A stretch of 64,000 nt of DNA from Candidatus Saccharimonadota bacterium (GTDB lineage Bacteria > Patescibacteriota > Saccharimonadia > Saccharimonadales > Saccharimonadaceae), in assembly GCA_017531585.1 (NCBI GenBank), contig JAFXKT010000001.1:124001-188000 (forward strand), written 5' to 3'. This document shows, piece after piece, positions 36,944 through 40,366 of the stretch. The notes beneath the pieces are model-generated. The model saw only the letters and a program-made list of their open reading frames with translations. It made no database searches and had not been told where the DNA came from. The position numbers were made by a program, and so were the translations under genes. Position 1 is the first letter of the stretch; every line of letters begins with the position of its first letter.

Positions 36944-38029
36944 CTACAATTCTTCAGCTTGCTTGGCAGCTTCGCGAACCTTAGCTTCGATTTCTTCCAT
37001 AAGCTCTGGCTTTTCTTTGAAGAGCTTCTTTACAGCTTCGCGGCCCTGACCCAAAGTCTCGCCATTATATTTCAAGAATGCGCCAGCCTTGTCCATGACA
37101 CCGTATTTAACAGCCAAATCCAAAACATCGCCAACCTTGCTAATACCTTCGTTATACATGATATCGAACTCAGCAGTACGGAATGGAGCAGCAATCTTGT
37201 TCTTTACAATCTTAATCTTGGTGCGGTTACCAGAAATATCTTCACCGTTCTTAATCTGACCAATGCGGCGAATATCCATACGAACAGAGGCATAGAACTT
37301 CAAAGCGTTACCACCAGTCGTAGTCTCTGGGTTACCAAACATAACACCAATCTTCATGCGAATCTGGTTAATAAAGATAACTGTAGCCTTTGTCTTGCTG
37401 ATAATACCGGTTAGCTTGCGCATAGCCTGGCTCATAAGACGAGCCTGAAGGCCCATCTGAGCATCGCCCATGTCGCCATCAATTTCGGCCTGTGGGACAA
37501 GTGCAGCAACAGAGTCGACAACGATCAAGTCGACAGCGCCACTACGAACCAAGGTTTCGCAGATTTCTAGTGCCTGTTCACCATTGTCTGGCTGAGAAAT
37601 AAGCAAGTTACCAGTATCTACACCAATCCTTCTTGCGTAAGCTGGATCTAGAGCGTGCTCAGCATCGATAAATGCCGCCTGGCCGCCCTGTTTCTGAATC
37701 TCAGAAATAGCATGAAGGGCAAGAGTAGTCTTACCAGAAGATTCTGGACCATAAATCTCAATGATGCGGCCTTTTGGATAACCACCGCCAAGAGCCAAAT
37801 CTAGAGACAAGGAACCGCTCGAGAATAGCTCAACATCAATCTTGGACTTTTCGCCAAGCTTCATAATAGAGCCATCACCAAACTGTTTCGTAATCTGAGA
37901 TAGAGCTAGACTTAGAGCCTGCTTTTTACCTTCGTCCATTGCTGGTTTTTCCGCTTTTTTGTTTGTAGTTTTAGAAGTCTGCTCTGCCGCCCCAGCCACT
38001 TCTGCATTTTCCTGACTTTTCTTAGCCAC
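36944..38029 (-). CDS. recA: Recombinase RecA
   Basis: RecA forms the DNA strand-exchange filament and triggers repair. The 361-residue product has Walker [11 protein letters not shown], Walker [11 protein letters not shown], loop motifs around [17 protein letters not shown] and [17 protein letters not shown], and the acidic C-terminus. An unusual Ala/Lys-rich extension of about 25 residues precedes the core. The start is a GTG at 38029 with a perfect SD (AGGAGG) 5 bases before it. The operon continues with recX. No SOS box was seen upstream. Confidence 0.98.
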
Positions 38030-38078: not shown

Positions 38079-38483
38079 CTAGTCGACCGATAGAGCCGAA
38101 ATTAAATGCTTACGCGAATATTTTGGCAGCGCCGCCTCTGCGCTAAAGATTGGCAAGTTGCCAAAGAAATACTCAATCTGCTTCATTATCTTATTCTTTG
38201 TATCCGAACTTATTTCTCCATTGAAGCCAACCTTTGGATTACGACGGTTAAATGTCTTTAGATAATTTACCTCGCCCGTTCGCATATTTAGTCCAGCACA
38301 ATAAACATCGTCAACGCGGCCGCGACGGGCTAGAATAGCATCACGCAAATCCCCAATATAAATATCTCCGGCACTCAAAATACAACGGCGAAGATCCAAT
38401 GCGAGCCAAATATAATCATCAAGCTCCGCACGAATGCGTTCTAGTTCCGTTGCAGATAGCTGCATTCTTCGAAAAATTTTCAT
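38079..38483 (-). CDS. Small protein, possibly DUF5674-like
   Basis: This is a 134-residue cytoplasmic protein without membrane segment. A central pattern (WLALDLRRCILSAGDIYIGD, followed by a long polar stretch with DVYCAGLNMRTGE and, near the end, an IMKQIEYFF helix) recalls the small DUF5674 family as I remember it, but this is not certain. It has a strong SD (AAGGAGG) before the ATG and a hairpin-forming leader (GTGCT/AGCAC). It diverges from yebC across a 146-base gap. No function is known. Confidence 0.6.
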   Translation of the reverse strand: MKIFRRMQLSATELERIRAELDDYIWLALDLRRCILSAGDIYIGDLRDAILARRGRVDDVYCAGLNMRTGEVNYLKTFNRRNPKVGFNGEISSDTKNKIMKQIEYFFGNLPIFSAEAALPKYSRKHLISALSVD

Positions 38484-39335: not shown

Positions 39336-39365
39336 AAAAGAGACCCTATAACCAGGGTCTTTTTT
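39336..39365 (+). terminator. Terminator of yebC
   Basis: AGACCCT/AGGGTCT stem with a 6-base loop and a T6 run. The T-run merges with the -35 box of the next gene. Confidence 0.88.
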
Positions 39366-39392
39366 GACGTTTCTAGCTTTTTATAGCATAAT
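39364..39392 (+). promoter_or_regulatory. Promoter of 39467 gene
   Basis: -35 TTGACG (39364-39369), a 17-base spacer and -10 CATAAT (39387-39392). The predicted mRNA has a leader of about 68 bases. Confidence 0.7.
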
Positions 39393-39414: not shown

Positions 39415-39453
39415 CTAGAGTGCGGAAAACCGCTCAAATTCTTACAGCTCTAG
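39415..39453 (+). ncRNA. Structured 5' leader, copy 1
   Basis: An outer 6-bp stem CTAGAG (39415-39420)/CTCTAG (39448-39453) encloses the hairpin GCGG-AAAA-CCGC (39422-39433) and a single-stranded stretch containing AAA and TTAC. The SD lies just after the outer stem. The core from 39421 to 39449 matches copy 2 (39963-39990) at 24 of 29 aligned positions (one gap), while the outer stem differs in sequence. It could be a riboswitch-like or protein-binding element. No known class was recognised. Confidence 0.55.
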
Positions 39454-39466
39454 AAGAGGAGATAGC

Positions 39467-39835
39467 ATGAATACGTTCTTAGATCATATTCACGTCGCCA
39501 CTGCAAGCCTTCGCACCCCGAGTAGCGTAAATAAGAACTATAGCGCAGACATGGTCGGCATCGAACTGGGCATTTTTATGCGTGCCAATAACGCTTGCAT
39601 TCAGTCCGGCATCGAAATCGTAGTCTCAGACAGCAGAAAAGTAGCCGCTTCCTGCAACGAGAGCGCCGCAATTACGATTAGTTCAACTTTTACTGCTACT
39701 GTTGTCGAAGACAATGATTATACCCAGTGGTTTCAGGCTTTCGAAGAAGTCGTGATCTTTCTTCTGAAAGAGTTCAATGCCGAAAACGAGGCGGTCGTTG
39801 TCCTTGATGACTTAGGATATCTTGTTACTCTCTAA
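39467..39835 (+). CDS. Small protein of unknown function with structured leader
   Basis: The 122-residue product is probably soluble, with no signal or membrane segment. It has two Cys residues and a mix of strand-like segments (IEIVVSD, ITISSTFTATVVED) and a C-terminal helix (QWFQAFEEVVIFLLKEF). I do not recognise the family. It has a complete private expression unit: near-consensus promoter, leader with folded RNA core (39415-39453), AGAGGAG SD and strong terminator (39842-39867). The next gene at 40013 has the same design and a related leader, so they are probably controlled together although the proteins do not look related. Confidence 0.7.
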   Translation: MNTFLDHIHVATASLRTPSSVNKNYSADMVGIELGIFMRANNACIQSGIEIVVSDSRKVAASCNESAAITISSTFTATVVEDNDYTQWFQAFEEVVIFLLKEFNAENEAVVVLDDLGYLVTL

Positions 39836-39841
39836 AAAACA

Positions 39842-39867
39842 GCGGGCTCTTCTGAGCCCGCCTTTTC
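39842..39867 (+). terminator. Terminator of 39467 gene
   Basis: GCGGGCTC/GAGCCCGC, 8 GC-rich base pairs, loop TTCT, T-rich tail. Confidence 0.9.
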
Positions 39868-39897
39868 TTGACTTTTTACCGTTTTGATGCAGCTATA

Positions 39898-39926
39898 TTG
39901 ACTTCTTAATACGCTTATGCTATAAT
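39898..39926 (+). promoter_or_regulatory. Promoter of 40013 gene
   Basis: -35 TTGACT, a 17-base spacer and -10 TATAAT preceded by TGC (extended -10). Close to the sigma70 consensus. Confidence 0.82.
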
Positions 39927-39933
39927 ATATATT

Positions 39934-39997
39934 GTCTCGTTGAGCGGAGACAAAAGTGGAGTTGCGGAATACCGCTGAAAGTTTACCGCTTCACTTT
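39934..39997 (+). ncRNA. Structured 5' leader, copy 2
   Basis: A first hairpin GTCTC (39934-39938)/GAGAC (39947-39951) is followed by a 9-bp outer stem AAAGTGGAG (39953-39961)/CTTCACTTT (39989-39997, one G-U pair). The outer stem encloses GCGG-AATA-CCGC (39964-39975) and a single-stranded tract with AAA and TTAC. The core matches copy 1; the outer stem pairs with different bases, which looks like compensatory change. The SD CGGAGG begins 4 bases after the stem. Confidence 0.58.
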
Positions 39998-40012
39998 AAT
40001 TCGGAGGTTATT

Positions 40013-40366
40013 ATGGGTAACTCAGAACTTTTTACAAAAAACAGAATGTGGGCTTTTACCACAATCAGCATCATGTGCGGCGACTTCGAATACGAAGGTC
40101 AGCCTGACCTGAAGGGCATTGAGGACGTAATCCTCGAGCTTATTGGCGGCGAGATGATTTACGCAACCGTTACCAACGCACGCTGCTGTGGCCGCCCGGC
40201 TGTCAAGGTCGACTTCGATTCTCCCGCCTTGCTGGACGAAAATCGCATCAACGCCTGGAAAATCGCCGTAGCACGCATAGTGTCAAGACTCGAAACTATC
40301 CTCGCTGGTGGAAGCAATTGCGTTCACTACTCTGACGGCACATCCTGCGCCCACAATCTGGACTAA
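40013..40366 (+). CDS. Small cysteine-containing protein with structured leader
   Basis: The 117-residue product starts at the ATG at 40013, which has the SD CGGAGG; an in-frame upstream start at 39956 would lie within the folded leader and is rejected. Six cysteines (MCGDFEY, RCCGRP, NCVHYSDGTSC) could bind a metal or form a disulfide. A mid-protein helix (NAWKIAVARIVSRLETIL) is visible. There is no signal peptide or membrane segment and no recognised family. It is a single-gene unit between strong promoter and terminator, paired with the 39467 unit by its related leader RNA. Confidence 0.68.
   Translation: MGNSELFTKNRMWAFTTISIMCGDFEYEGQPDLKGIEDVILELIGGEMIYATVTNARCCGRPAVKVDFDSPALLDENRINAWKIAVARIVSRLETILAGGSNCVHYSDGTSCAHNLD

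Follow-up and report, generated by a model that had tools for sequence, protein, structure and literature searches.

A compact structured RNA leader shared by unrelated genes in Saccharibacteria

Two neighbouring small genes of a Candidatus Saccharimonadota bacterium lie within the 64,000 nucleotides analysed here (denoted the window, meaning the whole of that stretch), and a first-pass annotation noticed that they carry similar leaders. What is conserved in these leaders, how far does it extend beyond this pair, and what could it do immediately upstream of a Shine-Dalgarno sequence (SD)?

Two similar leaders ahead of unrelated genes

The core of element 1, at 39421-39449, reads TGCGGAAAACCGCTCAAATTCTTACAGCT, and that of element 2, at 39963-39990, reads TGCGGAATACCGCTGAAAGTTTACCGCT. 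The sequence and a hand count confirmed the location of both cores and their reported identity at 24 of 29 positions, with one gap. Each core is enclosed by an outer stem (P1) and contains an inner hairpin (P2) followed by a one-sided strand (J2/1). That the outer stems pair in both leaders despite their differing sequence was borne out by the sequence and by RNAfold, which returned the noted two-helix fold for both elements. RNAfold z-scores of the trimmed elements 1 and 2 were -2.64 and -3.00, respectively, and those of the longer leaders only -1.47 and -1.43. The pattern TGCGGAAWACCGCTN{4,14}TTAC occurred twice in the window and in none of 100 shuffles, and the strict core pattern occurred twice in the whole 1.01 Mb genome. 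Both elements indeed lie between a strong promoter and the SD. The annotated terminator of each gene was found by terminator scan for gene 1 only; 3' of gene 2 a terminator-like hairpin is seen in the sequence, below the T-run threshold of the scan.

Table. Features of the paired leaders and their genes in the window
Feature	Position	Strand	Evidence
Sigma-70-type promoter, gene 1 (TTGACG, 17 nt, CATAAT)	39364-39392	+	promoter scan
Element 1, P1, 5' strand CTAGAG	39415-39420	+	sequence, RNAfold
Element 1, P2, GCGG-AAAA-CCGC	39422-39433	+	sequence, RNAfold
Element 1, J2/1, TCAAATTCTTACAG	39434-39447	+	sequence; conserved across family
Element 1, P1, 3' strand CTCTAG	39448-39453	+	sequence, RNAfold
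SD AGGAG, gene 1	39457-39461	+	sequence
Gene 1, 122-aa protein P0001, without family	39467-39835	+	ORF, family searches
Intrinsic terminator, gene 1	39842-39861	+	terminator scan
Promoter, gene 2 (TTGACT, 17 nt, TATAAT, TG before it)	39898-39926	+	promoter scan
Extra 5' hairpin ahead of element 2, GTCTC-GTTGAGCG-GAGAC	39934-39951	+	sequence
Element 2, P1, 5' strand AAAGTGGAG	39953-39961	+	sequence, RNAfold
Element 2, P2, GCGG-AATA-CCGC	39964-39975	+	sequence, RNAfold
Element 2, J2/1, TGAAAGTTTACCG	39976-39988	+	sequence
Element 2, P1, 3' strand CTTCACTTT	39989-39997	+	sequence, RNAfold
SD GGAGG, gene 2	40003-40007	+	sequence
Gene 2, 117-aa protein P0002, without family	40013-40366	+	ORF, family searches

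As annotated, the encoded proteins have no detectable relation to each other, by either BLASTP or hhalign. For P0001-P0003 neither Pfam nor NCBIfam gave a family above cutoff, and P0001 and P0002 had no credible score with any NCBIfam or PHROG family. The AlphaFold2 model of P0001 is poor (pLDDT 36.7); that of P0002 (pLDDT 59.5, pTM 0.54) appears to bear a weak resemblance to PII-like and SAM-lyase ferredoxin-like folds (best E 3.6e-3). P0001 was found in 3 of 45 genomes of the genus and P0002 in 4 of 45, and no relative of P0002 was found in viral contigs. In one of these relatives (G008) P0002 has a 40% identical counterpart that sits by itself behind yebC and has kept its leader: the outer stem is altered yet paired and the core is nearly identical, as selection acting on the RNA predicts. 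At the place of the extra 5' hairpin this leader has a different hairpin. The copy of element 2 in another genome (G035) carries changes in J2/1.

Two observations concern the surroundings of the pair. A 134-amino-acid ORF beside yebC (window 38079-38483, minus strand) has a clear relative in the corresponding position of G008 (L009, 2688-3263). In addition, the window pair lies less than 2 kb from recA (36944-38029), and on a Desulfurellales contig (L044, 1771-4945) both elements lie less than 3 kb from recA, a nearness that is possibly coincidence.

A scattered and covarying RNA family

A covariance model, R1, was built from four leaders and later extended (R2, R3). R1 detected a third copy in the window's own genome, in which GGGG/CCCC replaces the inner stem GCGG/CCGC, and R3 a fourth; the four own-genome matches at E<=0.05 are all the leaders themselves, so that no rRNA look-alike was reported. 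R2 matched 17 of 394 genomes of the family at E<=0.1, three of which were rejected (G039, G241, G300). In an order-wide sample 13 of 392 genomes matched at E<=0.05, all within the window organism's family and including the rejected G039 and G300. R3 matched 21 of the 394 genomes of the family, distributed over 4 of 61 genera, at E<=0.005; 17 of 174 genomes of one other genus at E<=0.05, two being rejected (G305, G105); and 2 of 379 genomes in a phylum-wide sample, one being the genome of the window and the other closely related to it. Counts from the large samples are lower bounds because stricter filters were applied there. Doubtful model matches lying inside or across coding sequence, or with partial stems (L014, L015, L029, L031, L040, L041), were dropped before counting.

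A degenerate core pattern matched 12 stretches in a genome contig collection, of which R3 with the full outer stem backs nine: five from Saccharibacteria MAGs already found, two from Desulfurellales, one from Patescibacteria and one from Parcubacteria. The other three (L048, L049, L051) have the core only and were dropped. Searching the whole genome of the Patescibacteria MAG brought its copies to two. The Desulfurellales assignment should be taken with care, since MAG contigs can be misbinned. Viral contigs yielded one real match (L056), on a Mu-like phage contig whose ORF list was read as including a terminase, a portal-like gene and others of phage type; here the element precedes a RadC-like gene (PF04002, E 2.1e-37). 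Viral pattern matches were otherwise dropped, 14 of 15 in one search and 13 of 13 in another, and a further viral-contig pattern gave no match. One core had no match in a phage collection, and another had only one, at chance level (E 4), in a plasmid collection.

The accepted set comprises 35 instances, 34 of them distinct, and reaches beyond the Saccharibacteria family in two Desulfurellales, two other Patescibacteria MAGs and the phage contig. The copies sought in related genomes were thus found upstream of genes, in unrelated genomes as well, and the window pair almost certainly belongs to a scattered family of structured RNA. Even closely related genomes carry the element only rarely and sporadically.

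The consensus is compact, about 39 nucleotides: an outer stem of 6-7 bp, 1-2 nt, an inner stem of 4 bp and a one-sided strand of 12-14 nt, followed by the SD. The inner stem is GNGG/CCNC, rarely GGCG/CGCC, with an A-rich loop. Among the 34 distinct cores P2 is GAGG/CCTC in 11, GGGG/CCCC in 10, GCGG/CCGC in four and GGCG/CGCC in three, the rest being single; two cores depart from the 4-bp pattern, G343b with a longer stem and G275 with three pairs. AAAA is the loop of 14 cores. J2/1 opens U-U-A-A, with T in 34, T in 31, A in 34 and A in 34 of the 34 cores, then A or T. A pseudoknot between the AAAA loop and J2/1 was discarded, the loop changes AATA, ATGA and ACAA being unmatched in J2/1 by eye, and pairing of J2/1 with one small RNA is unlikely, as the four own-genome copies differ there.

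Alignment A5 (39 rows, 34 distinct) showed that 97.6% of 329 cells are paired, with 98 two-sided changes against 27.0 in shuffles. Its covariation was 0.741, compared with 0.188 when shuffled and at most 0.174 when slid, a control that preserves relatedness. A structure-free MAFFT alignment of 15 sequences gave 97.2% paired, 34 two-sided changes against 8.8, and covariation of 0.644 against 0.143. Fitting to the model was used for alignments A3 and A5 but not for A4, and the two kinds agree. The outer stems therefore compensate, and the first-pass proposal that conservation is in the RNA holds: the stems covary and the copies precede genes in related and unrelated genomes.

Eight leaders have a further 5' hairpin, itself covarying. 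Four leaders, all ahead of one protein family, have the start of the core 8-10 nt downstream of the -10 box (TATAAT), indicating that in them the element is nearly the whole leader and that the extra 5' hairpin is optional. The long covarying hairpin (GAGCAGCGT...ACGCTGCTC) stands ahead of the core in the leaders of L034-L039, L042 and L078; most of these have another hairpin between core and SD, and five of the eight precede one protein family of at least 475 amino acids.

Placement in 5' UTRs and comparison with known systems

An ATG follows 13-37 nt downstream in all 35 accepted instances, whose acceptance took coding context into account. Without that filter, the family-search matches at E<=0.005 were likewise all sense and ahead of an ORF (27 of 27, L016 and L017 being judged from identical leaders), as were the matches outside R3's training: all nine in the family search and all seven from beyond the family. 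The gap between core and SD is 3-25 nt (median 7), and an exact TATAAT lies upstream in 28 of the 35. Compensatory stems and sense placement in the 5' UTR, as expected of a cis-regulatory RNA, were both found, and the element very probably acts in cis, in 5' UTRs.

The proteins below the copies form 24 unrelated clusters by BLASTP at E 0.01, a level at which deeper kinship may remain. Their ORFs measure 73-491 amino acids, a minimum for the five of 490-491 that run off the locus end. Only one of 15 proteins scanned matched a Pfam family above cutoff, the RadC-like protein, and a defence-family scan of 10 yielded nothing credible. The downstream protein of the Patescibacteria MAG had no paralogue beyond itself in six genomes. 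The downstream genes are nearly all orphans, with no common pathway.

Such accessory, sporadic genes with their own promoter and terminator, together with tRNA genes near elements 1-3, could suggest a DNA-level tag, such as a recombination site or cassette site that mobile orphan genes carry with them and whose fold would act as single-stranded DNA. We regard this as highly improbable: the element is always just upstream of the SD, in sense only and at that narrow distance from the ATG; it is not at cassette ends; and flanks are not shared in the leaders read, close relatives excepted.

The annotation knew no class that fits, and Rfam 15 agreed: neither a gathering scan of the window nor scans at E<=5 to 10 of 17 loci and two short stretches gave a match at the element. 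Chance-level matches touching element 2 (mir-1175, 15 bits; rpsL_pseudo, 14 bits) are far below gathering scores. The L10_leader match in L028 (1616-1764, plus strand; 47.9 against a gathering score of 44 bits) lies beside an element on the other strand. The radC RNA motif precedes several kinds of gene, including radC. That motif (RF01754) is listed by Weinberg et al. 2010 (PMC2864571), for Proteobacteria, as certainly an RNA and probably cis-regulatory, with a riboswitch role uncertain. One of our 35 instances likewise precedes a RadC gene, the sole annotated one, which would suit a diverged member of a known Rfam class. However, the RF01754 covariance model did not match the elements, the motif is listed there in Proteobacteria only, and a cmscan run at the laxest filter settings, covering the phage leader and the two window leaders, turned up neither radC nor any riboswitch at E values up to 10, which makes such membership very hard to credit.

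Ribosomal-protein leaders are also structured 5'-UTR RNAs controlling translation, as is predicted for the element, but none of 10 and none of two scanned downstream proteins matched a ribosomal protein family. The yjdF and NMT1 motifs were small orphan riboswitch candidates before their ligands were found. The element resembles them in having a compact structure in the 5' UTR, with unpaired nucleotides that are conserved and stems that covary, close to the SD; those motifs are associated with recognisable genes, whereas the element precedes unrelated orphans and has no Rfam match. A literature search found no description of the motif; the supplementary motif list of PMC8040213 was outside its reach. 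The motif could be among the 3161 human-microbiome candidates that this paper places in its supplements, and its main text names neither Saccharibacteria nor TM7. The family is thus apparently undescribed, and its novelty is provisional.

A different short leader seems to be common to two small genes (L093, 2593-2690 and 3340-3430) that neighbour each other just upstream of element 4 of the window's own genome: a hairpin is followed by TAGTA(C/T)TTTTT and then by GAAAG.

A possible receptor at translation initiation

No terminator was seen between core and SD in the leaders read, and no conserved alternative fold sequestering the SD was found. In a crude test the SD was unpaired at a mean of 0.60 in the full leader versus 0.52 in its 3' part, varying by leader without consistent difference. 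In element 1 CTCT could pair with AGAG of its own SD; by eye, other leaders do not do so convincingly. These results weigh against a classical two-state switch, and since SD pairing is not conserved we propose occupancy of the core beside the SD instead.

The best reading of the sequences, to which we give an even chance, is that of a compact cis-regulatory RNA receptor that works at the step of translation initiation. Its A-rich loop, together with the UUAA strand, would fold back into a receptor site, whose occupant is more probably a small molecule or ion that many bacteria share than a protein dedicated to the task; the reach across phyla and into phage suits a widely available cue. The occupied receptor would stabilise the outer stem close to the SD and alter 30S access, tuning translation without a terminator or separate anti-SD helix; for the direction, repression by steric hindrance is a guess. 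Against the receptor stand its rare and scattered occurrence in closely related genomes, which would be odd for a housekeeping riboswitch, the apparent lack of a conserved expression platform and downstream genes without a shared pathway. As these genes are nearly all orphans, they give no pathway hint to a ligand.

The main rival is a binding site for an RNA-binding protein, a regulator or ribosomal protein, that holds accessory genes in a post-transcriptional regulon. A small hairpin with invariant loop and strand, common to unrelated genes and adjacent to the SD where a repressor would act, is what such a site would look like; yet the protein would need a very wide spread (Saccharibacteria, other Patescibacteria, Desulfurellales and phage), the element is sporadic among congeners, and the own-genome matches include no rRNA look-alike, leaving this explanation rather unlikely. 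The strong promoters ahead, the good SDs after and the lack of a conserved anti-SD fold would suit a non-sensing element that accessory genes have borrowed to stabilise the 5' end of their mRNA or to enhance translation (standby site), but the near-invariant start of J2/1 and the A-rich loop exceed the needs of a generic stabilising hairpin, and we consider it improbable.

Returning to the receptor, we tentatively suggest that the family may be a new, Saccharibacteria-centred riboswitch-like class: a portable translational module of about 39 nt that would place unrelated, recently acquired orphan genes under one host-wide signal and that may have moved between phyla and by phage. Post-transcriptional control is little explored in Patescibacteria. 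Portable regulated leaders are wanted as genetic tools for these bacteria, with riboswitches named as candidates in PMC11665869. A short transferable leader on unrelated orphan genes offers a way to learn what those genes respond to, and, if the element does sense a metabolite or ion, the ligand would be directly testable with a 39-nt RNA.
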